Shown here piece by piece: positions 9,320-55,867 of a stretch of 64,000 nucleotides of DNA. This DNA comes from Exiguobacterium sp. FSL W8-0210 (GTDB lineage Bacteria > Bacillota > Bacilli > Exiguobacteriales > Exiguobacteriaceae): assembly GCF_038006045.1 (NCBI RefSeq), contig NZ_JBBOUK010000001.1:1591001-1655000 (forward strand). Reading direction: 5' to 3'. The notes below the pieces were generated by a model, which worked only from the letters and a program-made list of their open reading frames with translations, did not search any database and was not told the origin of the DNA. The translations under genes were made by a program, and so were the position numbers. Numbering within the stretch: position 1 is the first letter of the stretch; each line of letters starts with the position of its first letter.

Positions 9320-9879
9320 ATGGGCAAAAACGTATATTCAAGTGAAGTGAAATGGGCAGTAGTAAAAGATAAGCTGAGTGGTAAGTTTGGTTCTGTTGAT
9401 GCCATCGTCAACAACGCTGGATTAATGCCACTATCGCACCTCCATAAGAATCAGCAGGACGAATGGAACACGATGGTCGATGTCAACATTAAAGGCGTCC
9501 TCCATGGAATCGGAGCAGTCTGCCGTATATGCGCGAACAAAAAAGCGGACATGTCATCAACATCTCTTCTGTCGCCGGTCATGAAGTCATGCCGTCGAGC
9601 GCCGTCTACAGCGGTACGAAATTCGCGGTGCGCGCCATCACGGAAGGTCTTCGTAAGGAAGAATCGGTCGACAATCACATCCGTGCAACAATCATCTCAC
9701 CGGGAGCGGTCGATACGGAATTGAAGGACCATATCTCGGATGAAGAGATCAAACAAGGAATTGGTGACTTGAAAGCCATTGATGCGAGCGCGATTGCGCG
9801 TGCTATCGCATATGCTGTCAACGAACCAGAAGATGTCGCGGTCAACGAAATCTTAATTCGTCCGACAGCGCAACGTTAA
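9320..9879 (+). pseudogene. Short-chain dehydrogenase remnant (internal deletion plus frameshift)
   Basis: A good ribosome binding site and ATG are followed by only MGKNVY, then by [15 protein letters not shown]: the whole TGxxxGxG cofactor region (about 65 residues) is missing. A second lesion at about 9522 (GCAGTCTGCCG instead of a frame giving AV-LPYM) shifts the frame; the remainder, with SSVAGHEV, the YSGTKFAV active-site motif and the C-terminal part, continues in another frame to 9879. It is a clear pseudogene and the second broken SDR of the window. Confidence 0.88.
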
Positions 9880-37464: not shown

Positions 37465-37908
37465 TTATTGTTTTTTTGCTTGATAGCCGATCGTTTTGGC
37501 TGTCTCGATGAATGATTCGAGGTCTGACGGGGCTATTCCTTGAAATACTTGATTAATCGCTTGCTCGTGCTCCGGAAAAATCGTTTCCATCAATTGTTGC
37601 CCTTCAGGTGTCAGTTCCGCAAATGTCACACGCCGATCCTCTGGACATGCTTTGCGGACAACGTAATTCTTCTTTTCAAGCTTATCGATGACGTATGTGA
37701 TGCTACTGCTCGTAATCAAAACTTTTTTCCCAATCAATTGAATCGGTTGCCTGCCTCTGTGAAACAGCAACTCAAGAACCGAAAAATCCGTTGGGTTCAA
37801 CCCCCATTGCGCAACATCCTTCTTGATGACTTCATGTAACGCATCGACTGCGCGCACCATGACCGTCAATGCTTTCAAGTTAGGATTCGGTGGAGTCATT
37901 TCGTTCAC
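37465..37908 (-). CDS. mhqR: MarR family regulator, MhqR-like
   Basis: 147 aa with winged helix-turn-helix (PIQLIGKKVLITSSSITYVIDKLEKKNYVVR and DRRVTFAELTPEGQQL). MhqR represses quinone-detoxification genes and its own gene, and is released by quinones and aromatic compounds. Operators precede both this gene (37932-37949, near-perfect) and mhqO (37432-37449, perfect), supporting both autoregulation and control of the dioxygenase/reductase operon. Confidence 0.87.
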   Translation of the reverse strand: MNEMTPPNPNLKALTVMVRAVDALHEVIKKDVAQWGLNPTDFSVLELLFHRGRQPIQLIGKKVLITSSSITYVIDKLEKKNYVVRKACPEDRRVTFAELTPEGQQLMETIFPEHEQAINQVFQGIAPSDLESFIETAKTIGYQAKKQ

Positions 37909-37931
37909 CTCTTTTTTATCTTTAATTCATA

Positions 37932-37949
37932 TATCTTTAATTCGAGATA
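37932..37949. promoter_or_regulatory. Second MhqR operator (autoregulatory)
   Basis: TATCTTTAATTCGAGATA differs at two positions from the perfect palindrome. It starts immediately downstream of the -10 box of mhqR; a further half-site-like copy of TATCTTTAATTCAT lies at about 37917-37930. Confidence 0.72.
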
Positions 37950-37978
37950 AATATACCATCCCGATTTTTGTTCGTCAA
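37950..37978 (-). promoter_or_regulatory. Promoter of mhqR
   Basis: TTGACG (37978-37973), 17-nt spacer, TATATT (37955-37950) on the minus strand. Confidence 0.72.
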
Positions 37979-38054
37979 CAGAATTGGAATGTTTTAATAT
38001 TAACTTAAGCTTTAAATCTAAAAGTCGTTTTTATTTCTTAAAGTTTATACCAAT

Positions 38055-38104
38055 AAAAATATCCATATAAGGTAAGTTAATTTTACTTTATATAGATATT
38101 TTTA
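38055..38104 (-). terminator. Terminator at the end of the defence cassette
   Basis: AAAAATATC/GATATTTTT outer stem with inner ATATAA and GTAA/TTAC pairs; lies 40 nt past the HNH stop. Confidence 0.65.
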
Positions 38105-38144
38105 AATTGATATTTTATATTAATTTTAAAAATAAATTATATAA

Positions 38145-39304
38145 TTAATTATCGTTATTCACTAAATCAAAAATAAACTTTGATAAAGGTCTTTTGTGAA
38201 AATTATTTTCATCTAATTCAACACCATAAAGAAAAATATTTTTTTTCATTTCATTAAAATTCAATTCTTCAAAGTAATTCAGCATTAATTCAGAGTAAGA
38301 ATTATTATAAGCTTGCTTTTTTAAAAGTATTTCGGCAGCTATGTTTTTATGTGAATTATATAGATTTTCTAATTGAAAAATTTCAATATGATTTTTATAT
38401 TCTTCATCATGAATGATTTTTATATCAAGATCATCACAATTTGAACCAAACACACTCTCCAATTTAGTATCATTCCTAATTTTCACTTCAAATCTAAAAT
38501 TTGTATAATTTATTTGATCTATATATGGATTTTTAATTCCTTTAATTTTTACTCCCTTTAGCCTAGAATTACAAATCTGGCATGACGGAACAAAATTGTA
38601 TAGAGATAAACAGAAAACTTGATACAAATCTTTAAAATAATAATGATCTAAATCAGCAGTAACTTTCATTTCCCCATTTTTTTAAATTTTGAAATATAAT
38701 TTCTATTACAGTATGGACAGACCTCTATCCCAAAATTTAAAAGTACATTTTTTCTGATCTCTCCTGAAATATGACTATAATCAATTACATTTTTTAAAAA
38801 AATGTTTAATCTCCCAAAATAAATTTTAATAATCTTCAAAAACTTTTTTAATTTTTCTTCACTTGTTAAGAGTAAATTTTTGTTTAATCTTTTATTATTT
38901 AACTCTTTAATCCATATACTGTTATTTCCACCCTTAAAAATAACTTCGCTTATATAAGTCTCTCTAGCAAGTGTTCTTGAATGCTTATCAGATGGTGATA
39001 TACCAATAAGTATTTTTTTTACCTCTGAAACAGTAGACTCCAAAAAATCTGCAGTATACATATAAATAGCTAGTTGAGGGTATTTAATTTTTAAAAAATC
39101 AATTTTTTCGGTCAATAAATCCTTTAAAAATATTTTGAATTCTGTTTCATTACTACCTGATATAAAATCTATCATTCTATCTCCACTCAATTTATTTTTC
39201 AGATTATGATTTAATGCTCTGTATTTTGGCATAATTTTTGGAAGTACTAAATTATAGTATTCATCTCCATAATCAATTATTTGAGTATCACTTAAGTTTA
39301 TCAT
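38145..39304 (-). pseudogene. HNH endonuclease of an ATPase-HNH defence cassette, frameshifted at an A7 run
   Basis: Starts at the ATG at 39304 (GAGGAG upstream). The first frame (212 aa) ends soon after CPYCNRNYISKF; the second frame starts within 6 nt and carries TADLDHYYFKDLYQVFCLSLYNFVPSC and QICNSRLK. Together they make one HNH nuclease of about 386 aa with two CxxC zinc knuckles and the DLDH active-site strand. The break lies at a run of seven A (38677-38683); eight would restore one frame. Could be sequencing error, slippage-dependent expression or a real mutation. AT-rich compared with neighbours. Confidence 0.82.
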
Positions 39305-39338
39305 TATATAGATCTCCTCATCAGTTATTAAAAAACCT

Positions 39339-39398
39339 TTACAATTTTAATTGCTTATCAATTTCTTTAAGTTTATTTTCTAGTTGATTTTTTTTATA
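39339..39398 (-). pseudogene. Severed 3' end of the defence ATPase gene
   Basis: On the far side of the IS30 element, the minus strand codes YKKNQLENKLKEIDKQLKL then TAA. This coiled-coil tail is in frame with the ATPase ORF at 40455 when the IS and one copy of the TA duplication are removed. It lies 34 nt before the HNH start, showing that ATPase and HNH genes once formed an operon. Confidence 0.82.
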
Positions 39399-39400
39399 TA

Positions 39401-40457
39401 GGACGAATTGTAATATTAAGTGCAACACCTAGCTGAAAACACAAAAAAAACCCATAACGACCTCGTGTAGAATAGAGTTACCACACCAAATTCAACGGAG
39501 GATTCGTTATGAGCTATGTTCATCTTACCACATCAGAAAGAGTCAAAATAGAAACTTATCTAGAGCTTGGATTTTCAATGCGAAAGATCGCTCAGCATCT
39601 CGGACGACAGCCGTCCACGATTTCACGTGAGCTCAAACGGAATCCTTCCTACAATGCGATCAACGCCGGACTGCGTTATGAGATGCAAAAAAAGAATTGT
39701 GGAGCACGCACGCTGTTCAGCACTTCGCTTGGCTCATGTATCCTTTCGAAACTGCGAGAGACATGGTCTCCCGAACAGATCGCCGGACGGCTCTTTCACG
39801 AACAGGGACCATCGTACAGTACAATCTATCGATGGATATATAAAGGATTCATCAAGAGCGATTTAGGCGTTTTACGACAAAAAGGAAAGCGCCAAAAGCC
39901 ACGTGAGACAAGAGGTCGCTTCAACATCGGGCTTCCGATCAGTAAACGTCCGTCGGACGTCCGGGGTCGAGAAACGTTCGGGCATTGGGAGTTGGATACT
40001 GTCGTATCAGGACGAGGGCAGACAAAGGCGTGTGTTGCGACATTCATCGAACGTAAAAGTCGGTTCTATATCGTACTACCGATGGTCGACCGTTCTTCTC
40101 ACTCGATGGAACATGCCATCCAAACACTTTACTCTTCTTTCCCATCGGGAACGTTTCAAACCATGACGACGGATCGCGGTAAGGAGTTCAGCTGTCACGA
40201 ACGGATACAGGACTCTCTTGGTATCCCAATGTACTTTGCGGATCCCTATTCTTCATGGCAACGTGGCAGCAATGAGAATGCAAATGGTCTTCTCCGTGAG
40301 TTCTTCCCAAAGGGAACCAACTTCGGAATGATCAACAAGACAGAATTAGATTACGCACTTTCTAGAATCAACAATCGACCAAGGAAGTGTTTGGATTGGA
40401 AAACTGCATACGAGGTCTTTTCCGAAGAAGTGTTGCGCTTAATTTGACAAACCGTCA
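39401..40457 (+). mobile_element. IS30 family insertion sequence
   Basis: 1057 bp with 28-bp imperfect inverted repeats (39401-39428 and 40430-40457; the inner GCAACAC ends are identical) and a TA duplication at 39399-39400 and 40458-40459. It carries one transposase gene. It is inserted in the 3' part of the ATPase gene in the opposite orientation. Confidence 0.88.
39509..40447 (+). CDS. IS30 family transposase
   Basis: 312 aa, intact. N-terminal HTH (HLTTSERVKIETYLELGFSM, RKIAQHLGRQPSTISREL), then a DDE integrase core: HWELDTVVSGRG, TTDRGKEF and NGLLREFFPKGTNF with the final acidic residue in the NENANG region. ACGGAGGA precedes the ATG. Full length, so the element may still be active. Base composition is close to the host rather than to the AT-rich island. 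Confidence 0.95.
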   Translation: MSYVHLTTSERVKIETYLELGFSMRKIAQHLGRQPSTISRELKRNPSYNAINAGLRYEMQKKNCGARTLFSTSLGSCILSKLRETWSPEQIAGRLFHEQGPSYSTIYRWIYKGFIKSDLGVLRQKGKRQKPRETRGRFNIGLPISKRPSDVRGRETFGHWELDTVVSGRGQTKACVATFIERKSRFYIVLPMVDRSSHSMEHAIQTLYSSFPSGTFQTMTTDRGKEFSCHERIQDSLGIPMYFADPYSSWQRGSNENANGLLREFFPKGTNFGMINKTELDYALSRINNRPRKCLDWKTAYEVFSEEVLRLI

Positions 40458-42350
40458 TAGTAAAAAATCTTTAGATTTTTTAACTTCTCTAATAGTTTCC
40501 TCCAAAAAATTTTCTAAAAGGTTTTTAATTATTGGATCATCAATTAAAGAAATTTTACCTTCGATATTTTCTATATTTTCAATATTAATTATTTTATTAT
40601 TGTCATTTATTTTAATATATTCTATATCTTTTTTTATATTTTCAAAAAAATCATTTGCTAACTCTCCTACAGGTTTTTCCATAAAAAAACTGTCTTTAAT
40701 TAAATCGTACATGTTACTCATTAATCCATATTTTGCTTGATTGACTTCACTAGTATTTTTCCCATTTTTTTGTATGCATAAAATAAATTCTTTTGGAACA
40801 TCGGATATGAGAAATGGTGAATGAGAAGTAATGATAAACTGAAAACTCATATTATTATTTTTCGGTTCAAAATTTTTTAACATTTCATTTAAAGTGCTTA
40901 TATACCTTCTTGACCATTCTGGATGAAAATTCATATCAGGTTCGTCTAATAAAATAATGAAATTTAAATAATCAACTACATTTTCAGAATTTATTAATTT
41001 TATTGATTCATAAATATTTGAAAAACTTTTGATGTATTGCAACTCACCACTACTGATACTAGAAAGCCTAATTTCGAAAGGAATCCATTCTTTTATAGAT
41101 TTCTCGAATACGAGATTTGAATCATTATATTTATTCGTCAAAAAAACTAAATTTTCGATATACTCAATAATATCATCCCTATAATGTTGCTTATGAAAGA
41201 TTGGTATACTTATACGATCTTTACGAACAAAATTGGTAAAGGCTATACCATCAAGAAAAGTAAAAACTATTTTTATTAAATCAAATATAATTTCTTGATC
41301 TTTATTAAATTTAGTATCTTTAATAATATTCATTAGAAATTCAATTCTATCTTCAATATAATTATTAGTTACTTCAGAGTAATCAAAATAGTTGTTAAAA
41401 AAATCTTGATTTTTTACTTTTTTTTGATTTATTAATTCAAGTACAATTGATTCCAAATAACATATTTTGAACATATCAATATTATTTAAGATATTAGGAA
41501 TTTTTATATGGTTATCAGAAATATCAAATCCATAAATTTGCTTTAAATTGTTTTTATATTCTCTAGATTTGCGATATATCCTAAACATGCTAAACATCTT
41601 GTCTTTTTTTACATCAAATATAACTCGTAGATTTTTTCCTTTAAAAACATTTCTATCTTTTTCTAAGACCTCGTTTATATAATTAATCATGTTAAAAGTT
41701 GATGGTTCTTTTGAGATTACTCTTTTATAACCTTCATTGTGATCAATCTCATCCATAGTCATAATATCAAAAATATTTTGCTCATTTGAATTAACACTAT
41801 TTTTTTTATATAAATATACTATTTTCTTTTTTTCTAGAAATTCATTATCGATTATCACTTCTTCAAAGTCATAATTTTTTTCATTTTCGATCTTTTTAAT
41901 TTTTTTAAAAGATACTTTATTTACATTTTTATATTCATAATTCCTGATATTATCATTCCACTTAATGTTCGATAGAATAGGCATCTTATGGTACTCCATT
42001 ATATAATTATCTGGTTCATTTTCTATTCCATAAATCGCTAACCATTTATATTTTTTATAATCAATATCTTTTACAATACCTATTTTAAATTTAGCTGTAC
42101 TACCTAAAGAATCTAAAATTGTAGTTTTTCCACTACCGTTCTCTCCAATAATCAAATTAATTCTTTCTATGTTAAAATCACTAAAGTACAAATTTGCTTG
42201 ATTGTTAATTTTTTCTATAATTAAATTTTTTTTATTTACTTTATCATCAATAATTGAGCATTTAAGGTTACTGCTAAAATTAAATGACTGTTCTTTAAAA
42301 CACTCTCCTAAATTTTCTACATATAAATAAACTAAAAATCTTCTATCCAA
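40455..42350 (-). CDS. AAA family ATPase of an ATPase-HNH defence cassette, C-terminus altered by IS30
   Basis: 631 aa from the TTG at 42350 (GGGAGGG 7-8 nt upstream); an upstream TTG at 42392 is also in frame. Walker A IIGENGSGKTTILD (about 75-88), Walker B FIILLDEPDMNFHPEW and switch ITSHSPFLIS mark an ABC/SMC-like ATPase of the AAA_21/AAA_15 group, as in PtuA of Septu and similar systems. The natural last 19 residues are cut off: the frame now stops at a TGA made by the IS30 end. The codon bias is extremely AT-rich, indicating acquisition. Confidence 0.85.
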   Translation of the reverse strand: MDRRFLVYLYVENLGECFKEQSFNFSSNLKCSIIDDKVNKKNLIIEKINNQANLYFSDFNIERINLIIGENGSGKTTILDSLGSTAKFKIGIVKDIDYKKYKWLAIYGIENEPDNYIMEYHKMPILSNIKWNDNIRNYEYKNVNKVSFKKIKKIENEKNYDFEEVIIDNEFLEKKKIVYLYKKNSVNSNEQNIFDIMTMDEIDHNEGYKRVISKEPSTFNMINYINEVLEKDRNVFKGKNLRVIFDVKKDKMFSMFRIYRKSREYKNNLKQIYGFDISDNHIKIPNILNNIDMFKICYLESIVLELINQKKVKNQDFFNNYFDYSEVTNNYIEDRIEFLMNIIKDTKFNKDQEIIFDLIKIVFTFLDGIAFTNFVRKDRISIPIFHKQHYRDDIIEYIENLVFLTNKYNDSNLVFEKSIKEWIPFEIRLSSISSGELQYIKSFSNIYESIKLINSENVVDYLNFIILLDEPDMNFHPEWSRRYISTLNEMLKNFEPKNNNMSFQFIITSHSPFLISDVPKEFILCIQKNGKNTSEVNQAKYGLMSNMYDLIKDSFFMEKPVGELANDFFENIKKDIEYIKINDNNKIINIENIENIEGKISLIDDPIIKNLLENFLEETIREVKKSKDFLL

Positions 42351-42441
42351 TTTATTCCCTCCCAATAATGCATTATTTATAAAATACCTCAAAATTTAGT
42401 TATTTCTTATACTGATTTTTTCAAAAAATTATACATTATTA

Positions 42442-42870
42442 TCAATATATCGTATATCCTCTGAACGGCACTGGCGTCGACAGCCGAATCCAGGTCGACG
42501 GTTTGCCGTAGACCGATGCGTCATCGAGAAAACGTTCCAGTGTTGTAACGGACGCCGTTTGCAACTTGACCATGAAGTTATAGCTACCGGTCAGCCGGTG
42601 ACACTCGACGACTTCTGGATGTCCTTTACAAAATTCAATTAAGCCTGCGCAGCGTGTCTCTTCGAACATGACGACCGCGAGTAACCCTTGCGCGAGTGCT
42701 TCCGGATTTATGACAGCGCGGAATCCTTCGATGATTCCCGCGTCCTCCATTTTTCGGACCCGTTCGATGACGGCAGGTGCCGATAATCCGATCTGACGTC
42801 CGAGTTCCGACCATGGAATCCGGGCATCGTCTTGCAGAATCCGGACAATCTGTTGATCAATTTGGTCCAT
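42442..42870 (-). CDS. Lrp/AsnC family transcriptional regulator
   Basis: 142 aa. N-terminal HTH (DQIDQQIVRILQDDARIPWSELGRQIGLSAPAVIERVRKM) and C-terminal RAM ligand domain (CHRLTGSYNFMVKLQTASV). Typical length for the family, which senses amino acids. It borders the AT-rich island; the island begins a few nt after its stop codon. Confidence 0.92.
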   Translation of the reverse strand: MDQIDQQIVRILQDDARIPWSELGRQIGLSAPAVIERVRKMEDAGIIEGFRAVINPEALAQGLLAVVMFEETRCAGLIEFCKGHPEVVECHRLTGSYNFMVKLQTASVTTLERFLDDASVYGKPSTWIRLSTPVPFRGYTIY

Positions 42871-44628: not shown

Positions 44629-44975
44629 TTACAATAGTTGTTCATGAGACGTTTTCCCGCTTGCATCGAATGTCAGTTGATGGATTGCTTCAACAGTTCT
44701 TCTAGCCGTTCAGGCGATAAACGTTCGTCTGTTTCCTGAAAACGCCGTTCTTGAAACGCTGCCTCGTAGATCGGCAAACCTCGTTGCTCAGCAAGCGGAC
44801 GGACGGAATCCATCGCCCGTCGCATGGGACTAGAATAAATGATATCAATCGGTATCGCTTGAAAGAACGCTACGAGTTCCTGCGCTTGTTCTTGACCTGC
44901 ATCTGTTAATCCCCGCCCTCGATCACTGCCTGTTTTGATCGATTCGCAATGGCGAACGAAATAGATCGTCCTCAT
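44629..44975 (-). pseudogene. Histidine phosphatase fragment
   Basis: Begins at the ATG overlapping the S51 peptidase stop. N-terminal RHCESIKT (RHG-like catalytic motif), GLTDAGQEQAQEL and IYSSPMRRAMDS are intact, but the frame ends after 101 residues. A shifted frame continues with TFDASGKTSHEQLL (as in GGES-type segments) to a stop at 44629, and the second catalytic His half of the protein (usual length 180-200 aa) is absent. Truncated and probably inactive. Confidence 0.72.
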
Positions 44976-45634
44976 CGCAACTGGACCCACGTTCCTTCAG
45001 AAATTACATCGACGTTCGAACCGATGACACGGATCGCTGTCGCGTCGTCGATTGCGTAAGCTGGATTCGTTAATATCTCAGCCCAAGACTTGGCAGCTTG
45101 TAAGTGATTGTCTGGTAACTGCGGATGATCGAGGTGTGGGAAAATTGAAAAGTCAATGAGACCGAGCGTTGCGTCCGATTGCTCCGGCGTCTTTTTCCAC
45201 CCAACGAAATCCGTTCCGATTCGTGGCGTAAGCACCATGCTACCGGCACTCATCCCGACATAAACACCGGTCAGTTGCGGTAATAGTCGATCAAAGCCCG
45301 ATTCGACGAACCAATGATGTAGAAAGAGTGGATCTCCACCATTGACGAGGATGACATCCGCTTGTTCGACCGCTGGTTGCCAAATTGCTGGATCAATTAC
45401 CGAGACCGCTGATAATTCCAACAGACCGACTGACTTCCATCCTAAATCGACCATCGGTGCCTCATCTTTTCCTTGAATGAAGTTGACAGCGAGGGCCGTT
45501 CCTCTGCCTAATGCGTAGGAAGCTGTCGTGATCGCGATGGCATTGCATTCCTCAATCGGTTTTCCGAGCATCTCGCGTAACGCGTTGTGAATCGATGGAT
45601 TTTGTATCCCACCAGACGTTAATAAATAGTCCAT
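44972..45634 (-). CDS. Peptidase S51 (dipeptidase E-like)
   Basis: 220 aa from the ATG at 45634, 7 nt after AGGAGG. LTSGGIQNPSIHNAL at the start, VNGGDPLFLHHWF, and nucleophile VGMSAGSMVLTP (GxSAGS) identify family S51. Dipeptidase E hydrolyses N-terminal Asp dipeptides; relatives have other substrates. Histidine in FPHLDHPQL completes the active site. Overlaps the phosphatase fragment by 4 nt. Confidence 0.87.
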   Translation of the reverse strand: MDYLLTSGGIQNPSIHNALREMLGKPIEECNAIAITTASYALGRGTALAVNFIQGKDEAPMVDLGWKSVGLLELSAVSVIDPAIWQPAVEQADVILVNGGDPLFLHHWFVESGFDRLLPQLTGVYVGMSAGSMVLTPRIGTDFVGWKKTPEQSDATLGLIDFSIFPHLDHPQLPDNHLQAAKSWAEILTNPAYAIDDATAIRVIGSNVDVISEGTWVQLR

Positions 45635-51271: not shown

Positions 51272-51306
51272 AACGGCGGACCGAGAAAAAGTCCGCCGTT
51301 TTTTTA
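51272..51306. terminator. Terminator
   Basis: AACGGCGGAC/GTCCGCCGTT and a T-run between convergent genes. Confidence 0.88.
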
Positions 51307-51918
51307 GTCCGCTATGACATGCGACATGTCAGCTTCTAATCGAATCACGGCTTCCCCATCCCTGTATTCGACGATCGTCAAACTCGTTCCATGAATGAAC
51401 GGCGGATCCCATAATGTCGCGAACGGCTTACGTTGAAGATATGTCAGCAAGATGTTAAGGAAGATGCCGTGGGTGACGATTAAGATGTTTTCGTCTTCTT
51501 CATGGTCTGCCAGTCGTTCCAAAAACGATAGGATGCGCTCGCGGACCGCGTCAAAGGATTCTCCACTCTCCGGTATGTAGGTATGCGGCGTTTACCAAAA
51601 TGCAGCATGCGCAAGTGGATGCGCGACTTCAATTTCTGCCGCCGTCCGCCCTTCCCAGGCTCCCATGTGCATTTCACGCAATCGATCGTCGATGGTGACC
51701 GGAATCGCCGGATCAAGATCCATCATTCGAACTGTTTCTCGGACACGACCAATCGGACTGATATAAAGGTGATCTATATGAACTTCACGTAAGCGGTGAC
51801 CAAGATCGCGCGCATTTTGCCTGCCCTTTGCTGTCAAAGGAGAGTCTTCCCAGCCTTGCATTCGTTTTTCTAAGTTCCATTCCGTCTCGCCATGACGCGT
51901 AATGTAAAGTGTTGGCAT
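51304..51918 (-). pseudogene. Phosphoglycerate-mutase-like histidine phosphatase with internal stop
   Basis: ATG at 51918, 8 nt after AAAGGA. RHGETEWN, MQGWEDSPLTAKGRQNARDLG and MHMGAWEGRT are intact, then TAA at 51592-51594 interrupts. The same frame goes on without shift: TPHTYIPESGESFDAVRERI, THGIF (second catalytic His) to 51304. Thus a single nonsense codon (for instance AAA to TAA) inactivates a full-length gene of about 204 codons. Confidence 0.87.
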
Positions 51919-52062
51919 CCATTCCATCCTTTCGATTTCTAGTTTCTTTCAAAAGTGTATCAAACTCTGGCTGCTTTTTCCTGCAACTAAAGAAAACGAA
52001 TCCAGAAGAGAAATTCACCAATCCGTTCGGTATGATGAAGATAGACCTAAAGGAGGAATTCG

Positions 52063-52951
52063 ATGAATCGCCAAGAGATGATTGACCTTGCCAAACAAAT
52101 CCGCTCAGATGAGGAACGTCCTCAAGTCACACCTCCTCATCCACCGCAAGCGACCACGACTACGCTACACGTGCCGACTTCAGTCGGAGATGTCCGAGTG
52201 TTGTGCCACTCACCGATTGATGCAGCAGAACCGTTACCTGGATTCATCAGTTTCCATGGTGGCGGCTTCATCACCGGAACGCCAGAGATGGATGAACCAT
52301 GGAATCTGTTTCTCGCTGAGACCGCCAACTGTCATGTTCTCAATGTCGAGTACCCGTTAGCGCCGGAGTCATCCATTCCCCGTTCCAGTCCTCGCCACCT
52401 ATGAGGTCGTCCAGTGGATATTTCAACATGCTGATACGCTACACCTCGATGCTGCGCGTATCGCGATCGGGGGACATAGTGCTGGTGGGAACCTCGCTAC
52501 TGCCATATCGTTATGGAACGCTGAGCAGACACATCCGGTTACGCTCATTGCTCAAATCCTTGACTACCCTCCACTCGATCTCGCAACGGACCCAGCGGAC
52601 AAACCGTTTTTTAAAGAAGCCATACCTACTGAGCAGGCACGTCAGTTCAATGCGATGTACATCGCTCGCGCGGAAGATGCGTATCATCACCTTGCTTCGC
52701 CACTCTATGCGGCTCAACTTGAAGCACTACCGCGAACACTCATTTTAACGGCTGAGCACGACTCACTGGCGCAGGAAGCCCAGCAGTATGCTAAACGACT
52801 TCAAGCAGCAGGTGTTCACGTCGAACACCTGGAATTTGCCGGACAACCCCATGCCTTTACGCATCACGGTGACGCAAACGTAGCGCTTCAGGCTTGGCAA
52901 CGGATTGCTGATTTTCTTAGACATGTCTTTCAGTCTGCTAAACGTTCGTAA
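52063..52951 (+). pseudogene. HSL-type alpha/beta hydrolase (esterase), frameshifted
   Basis: AAAGGAGGAATTCG precedes the ATG. First frame: SFHGGGFITGTP (oxyanion HGGG) and NVEYPLAPES, broken at about 52372. One frame over: PVPVLATYEVVQWIFQHAD, IAIGGHSAGGNLA (nucleophile elbow), PADKPFFKEA and, near the end, GQPHAFTHHGD (catalytic His). All parts of hormone-sensitive-lipase-type esterases are present, so only the frameshift is disabling. Confidence 0.87.
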
Positions 52952-55337: not shown

Positions 55338-55867
55338 TCATATACAAATATGTAGACCTGTGTTGTCTTGCCATCTTTTTTCGATCACCCGTCGCTGAAA
55401 AATCAAATGACGCTCGGTATCGATTTGAAAATGGGGTGTCGGGCGAATGATTCGATCCCTAAAGTCACCTGCCCCGTACGGAAGATAGAGTTCAAAGTCC
55501 GGTCGTCTCGTCACGCCGATTGCCGTGACAGTCTCGGGAAACTTTGAAATCGCATCTTGTGCTGATGTATAAGGTGGTAACTCGTTAATCGTGTGCATAC
55601 GTGCCTGATTTTTGACGGACCACGGTAAATCTATCCATTCACATAATTGCCGCTCATGTTTTTTTCCGTCGCTTCAGAAATATCCGATGGGTCAAAATAG
55701 ACGATATCGATGTCCGACTGTGCGTTTTGATCAATGCACCAAATTTTCGAACGAAGGACACCGGCACAAATCCACCAATCCGGTAAATCGAGTCGTTCCA
55801 CGGTCGTCAGCATGAGCTGCACTTCTGAGTCCTCTCGTAATCGTCGTTCGATATCCACTAGATTCAT
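55338..55867 (-). pseudogene. Nucleotidyltransferase (DUF925 type), frameshifted at an A7 run
   Basis: GGAGGAG precedes the ATG. First frame: LDLPDWWICAGVLRSKIW and SDIDIVYFDPSDISEATEK, then loss of frame in a run of seven A (plus-strand T at about 55659-55665); eight would give EKKHERQLCEWIDLPWSVKNQARM and continue into PPYTSAQDAISKFPETVTAIGV and the family C-terminus FQRRVIEKRW. So a single-base A-run difference disables it, as in the HNH gene at 38680. Confidence 0.85.

Follow-up and report, generated by a model that had tools for sequence, protein, structure and literature searches.

In the window (the whole stretch of 64,000 nucleotides of Exiguobacterium sp. FSL W8-0210 that was analysed here), the 3' end of an ATPase gene in a two-gene cassette is interrupted by an insertion sequence of the IS30 family, and in the assembly the adjoining HNH nuclease gene is broken by a one-base frameshift. 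The locus is a damaged member of the candidate defence system PDC-M62, and probably not a functional one. The observations are best accounted for by the following course of events, to which, taken as a whole, we assign a probability of about 0.85. An Exiguobacterium would have gained a two-gene, low-GC, Septu-like (PDC-M62) cassette between its marR and lrp genes. An IS30 element then entered the best site of the region with the form T run, 4 bp, A run, located where the ATPase gene is rich in lysine codons near its 3' end, and duplicated ATAG. This insertion introduced an immediate stop in place of the last 19 codons, which encode a short coiled-coil-like tail, and separated the ATPase gene from the nuclease gene by 1 kb of DNA in the opposite orientation. 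In a separate event, one A would have been lost from an A8 run, splitting the HNH nuclease between its two CxxC pairs. The features are listed in Table 1.

Table 1. Features of the damaged PDC-M62 locus (positions in the window)
Feature	Positions	Strand	Basis
Low-GC (about 22%) cassette, probably acquired	38010–42441		Composition, conserved flanks; left edge approximate
PDC-M62A/PtuA-like ATPase, truncated by 19 codons	40455–42392	−	PADLOC PDC-M62A profile
Target-site duplication ATAG, right copy	40457–40460		Sibling-copy comparison
IS30-family insertion sequence, 1055 bp	39402–40456	+	Ends fixed by ten sibling copies
IS30 transposase, 312 aa, intact	39509–40447	+	NF033563 transpos_IS30, 282 bits, cut-off 80
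Target-site duplication ATAG, left copy	39398–39401		Sibling-copy comparison
Severed 19 codons, YKKNQLENKLKEIDKQLKL	39342–39398	−	Flanks joined by script; natural stop 39339–39341
HNH (PDC-M62B/PtuB-like), N-terminal part, ends after CPYCNRNYISKFKKMGK	38666–39304	−	PDC-M62B profile 38–137 of 328
Frameshift site, A7 run (coding strand)	38677–38683	−	DNA comparison; A8 in L020
HNH, C-terminal part, other frame	38145–38669	−	PDC-M62B profile 142–321 of 328, E = 2.7e-36

The original prediction had described a recently broken ATPase-HNH operon. This description is supported by the homology of the severed tail and by an intact gene pair in a relative, except that the split of the HNH gene had been missed. 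What is new in comparison with it are the corrected ends and duplication of the element, the second lesion, the name of the family, and an explanation for the choice of the target site. The interruption of a defence gene by a transposon is in itself an event of a known, ordinary kind. The locus offers a clean case of the loss of a defence system: an acquired cassette was struck by a transposon where this could be predicted, and its nuclease gene suffered a frameshift.

The insertion and its target site

The source genome (G000; 3.35 Mb, 8 contigs) contains 11 copies of the element, including that of the window. The ten siblings have the terminal sequences GACGAATT...AACCGTC and fix the ends as given in Table 1, in place of the limits 39401–40457 proposed at first; they also show that the target duplication is the 4 bp ATAG and not the dinucleotide TA. 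The reconstruction of the uninterrupted frame stands despite the corrected ends, because the net removal is the same (1055 + 4 = 1057 + 2 = 1059 nt). Upon joining of the flanks, a frame of 664 aa that reads DFLL-YKKNQLENKLKEIDKQLKL-stop was restored, followed by the predicted gap of 34 nt between the natural stop and the HNH start. The layout of the open reading frames was also reproduced, and the TGA that now ends the ATPase gene is indeed made by the element, one base coming from the target and two from the IS. Transposition of the IS30 type agrees with the transposase profile, the inverted repeats and the short target duplication, all of which were found; the inverted repeats, previously put at 28 bp, match at 21 of the 26 outermost bases.

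A recent insertion, as had been claimed, fits the data. The element differs at no position of its 1055 bp from two of its siblings and by a single substitution from each of three more; both copies of the duplication match exactly; and the frame of the severed tail has stayed open. Exact 4-bp repeats flank eight of the 11 copies in the source genome, the copy of the window among them. To describe the target, 32 IS30 copies from three Exiguobacterium genomes (G000, G004 and G005; two genomes carry elements that are 75–76% identical) were analysed, and exact 4-bp repeats were present at 25 of these. The 25 sites share a symmetric pattern, a T run, any four bases, and an A run. When the insertion site of the window (position range 39388–40470) was scored with a leave-one-out matrix built from the other 24 sites, it ranked first of 62,917 positions. 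The median score was −9.7 in the cassette and −20.9 in the rest of the window. Thus, the element inserted at this point because its target preference ranks the site top, and the low GC content together with the lysine codons of the ATPase tail helped in the choice. A general rule that the IS seeks AT-rich DNA was also considered and is weak; the other ten copies in the same genome do not lie inside DNA that is low in GC on both sides.

The split of the HNH gene

The second lesion had been overlooked before: a one-base frameshift carries the HNH gene on into the adjacent open reading frame (38145–38669). The nearest relative of the locus, L020 from Exiguobacterium sp. s193, reads TTCAAAAAAAATGGGG with an A8 run in one frame, whereas the window reads TTTAAAAAAATGGGG with an A7 run. 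The N-terminal part covers positions 1–181 of 370 of the family profile. The C-terminal part carries DLDHYY...CQICNSRLKG and is 61% identical to residues 216–386 of the single HNH protein of L020. Both halves are open and overlap by ATGA. The frameshift lies between the CPYC and DLDH motifs. Mapped onto the secondary structure of the modelled L020 HNH protein (mean pLDDT 74), the break interrupts the beta-hairpin of the nuclease core and parts the two CxxC pairs from each other. The split HNH gene is probably a worse lesion than the loss of the ATPase tail.

Is the frameshift genuine? An error of sequencing or assembly, which would leave the IS insertion as the only real lesion, is unlikely in our view, but it deserves the most attention among the alternatives. 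The difference is a single base in a homopolymer, and at least three other genes of the window change frame relative to the related genome G012 (near 9.5, 52.37 and 55.66 kb; assembly quality was judged over 184 kb). However, the clearest of the other indels (at 52369) is located outside homopolymers, and HNH genes of the PDC-M62B family are split at other positions in two other species (L151, 2131–2959, and L152, 2654–4029), which makes decay of the gene plausible. Relative to G012, the regions 9383–9876, 44632–44990, 51304–51927, 52063–52948 and 55338–55855 of the window are frameshifted, shortened or split, by decay or by sequencing errors.

Altogether 26 PDC-M62B loci, including that of the window, were compared, and HNH is one open reading frame in 23 of the 25 others. 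As the other two splits are found elsewhere in the gene, a programmed frameshift was rejected as the main reading. One further locus of this set has a frameshifted ATPase gene (L055, 2807–4784).

The state of the defence system

With a split nuclease, an ATPase that has lost its tail, and two genes held apart by 1 kb of DNA in the opposite orientation, the defence system is probably inactive, and transcription of the HNH gene would be reduced. Against inactivity, the catalytic motifs of the ATPase are all retained (Walker A GENGSGKT, the SSGE signature and LLDEPD), and the GAGGAG ribosome-binding site in front of the HNH gene persists.

A system that still works would have to tolerate the loss of the tail, express HNH by read-through or from a promoter formed at the IS end, and obtain some functional nuclease by slippage of RNA polymerase at the A7 run or by re-initiation at the overlapping ATG. 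The open halves with their ATGA overlap would suit such a scheme, and so would the ATPase of L068 (566 aa), which naturally has no tail and ends earlier than the truncated open reading frame. Judging from this sequence, the loss of the tail by itself need not kill the ATPase, and the truncation alone may be tolerated. However, the prevalence of undivided HNH genes and the break between the CxxC pairs in the core of the nuclease both argue against a working system, and a promoter scan yielded results near the shuffled background (38 found versus 28.5 expected in shuffles, sd 5.6), with the strongest candidate in front of HNH overlapping its start codon. We therefore regard continued function as improbable and retain the reading of an inactive system. 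Annotation that counts such cassettes by profiles only could list this one among the systems present, although it is probably dead.

The severed tail of the ATPase

The tail homology search that had been suggested was performed with relatives, 18 of which have an open reading frame that spans both ends of the ATPase gene. A homologous, coiled-coil-like C-terminal tail is present in 17 of these 18 full-length relatives, and almost all aligned relatives end with a short charged stretch opposite the severed codons. On the family profile of 650 positions, the same 17 reach positions 637–650, the truncated ATPase ends at 621, and L068 ends at 608. The joined tail adds 10.1 bits to the score against the family profile, a value matched by four of 500 shuffled tails, with a slight bias possible in that the profile came from an alignment including the protein of the window. 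The L020 ATPase, to which the truncated ATPase is 40% identical, was modelled with a mean pLDDT of 68 and has a C-terminal helix at residues 641–687 in this model. A natural end of the ATPase at the start of the IS, with a "tail" that is chance open sequence, is thus hardly credible given the reach of the relatives, the score of the joined tail and the helix, even if L068 stops still earlier. The tail would matter for the assembly of the ATPase with the nuclease. Together with its one natural absence, in L068, it allows a direct test of what the PtuA-like C-terminal helix does.

Genomic setting and other damaged loci

Apart from the IS, the GC content is about 22% from about 38.0 to 42.44 kb, compared with 42–55% around it. 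The cassette is flanked by a marR gene (37465–37908) and an lrp/asnC gene (42442–42870; Pfam MarR and AsnC). In eight relatives with flanks 87–97% identical, the marR-lrp interval contains other genes of normal GC content, and neither the ATPase nor the HNH gene. The gene content of this interval (37908–42442) varies among relatives; it is a small variable site.

A search of related genomes for an uninterrupted locus had been suggested. L020 is such a locus; its ATPase gene is undisturbed and overlaps with an HNH gene that is likewise intact. The genome contigs searched yielded only L020, and no uninterrupted strain of the same species. No uninterrupted allele was present in the viral contigs or plasmids searched, and the search of phage records gave one weak, partial match. 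In L020 (4174–11541), the PDC-M62 pair is located between the gene of a type II restriction enzyme and that of GajA. Because these genes adjoin it, L020 lies in a defence island.

A different PDC-M62A ATPase gene of Exiguobacterium is cut in the middle by a 75%-identical IS30 element with the duplication AAAT (L067, 5129–6181; G004:C3:685628-686680). IS21-like genes are found on either side of that locus. One might speculate that IS30 elements with the T-run/A-run target repeatedly strike low-GC acquired defence genes and form an unplanned brake on foreign cassettes in Exiguobacterium. The two independent PDC-M62A ATPase genes cut by IS30, in the window and in G004, would fit this idea, as would a target-motif score that is far higher in the low-GC cassette than in the surrounding host DNA. 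The positions of the ten sibling copies, described above, stand against it, and we consider such a brake quite doubtful.

Comparison with known systems

With the IS30 family, the element shares the transposase profile, the terminal inverted repeats, and an outward TTGACA in the right end. Target duplications of this family are usually 2–3 bp long. The element of the window differs from the usual pattern by its 4-bp duplications and its T-run/A-run target.

The two genes and their order are those of PDC-M62, a candidate system of PADLOC. The ATPase matches PDC-M62A along its length (E = 1.4e-33; residues 20–636 on positions 3–604 of 633 of the profile), and both HNH parts match PDC-M62B (Table 1). 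The pair is not intact, and it differs from PDC-M62 by the lack of the last 19 codons of the ATPase gene, by the IS between the genes, and by an HNH gene in two frames. In the Bacillus cereus group, 203 PDC-M62 calls coincide with Septu calls (PMC11811056).

As in Septu (PtuA/PtuB) and in the effectors of type I-A retrons (Ec78/Eco7, Ec83), a PtuA-like ABC ATPase adjoins a PtuB-like HNH nuclease, and the best PDB fold matches, obtained with the L020 relatives, belong to these systems. The fold of the L020 ATPase is closest to the PtuA chains of retron Ec78/Eco7 and Septu (Z 16.5, 4.2 Å, 252 residues), and that of the L020 HNH protein to PtuB chains (Z 10.5, 3.8 Å, 188 residues). With NF041760 of NCBIfam (retron Ec78 PtuA), the ATPase scores 51 bits, against a cut-off of 500, and we therefore call the locus "Septu-like" and not Septu proper. 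A type I-A retron was considered and ruled out, as neither an open reading frame of a reverse transcriptase (38 to 42.4 kb) nor an Rfam match to an msr-msd or a known RNA family (36–44 kb) accompanies the PtuAB-like genes. In one Septu of E. coli, which cleaves tRNA-Tyr, the Walker and HNH residues are essential, and mutation of either active site abolishes immunity (PMC13096335). Likewise, growth arrest by the effectors of retron-Eco7 requires both the ATPase and the nuclease (PMC11555353). Compared with Septu and the type I-A retrons, the ATPase is longer here, and the HNH protein carries a long N-terminal part that is helical.
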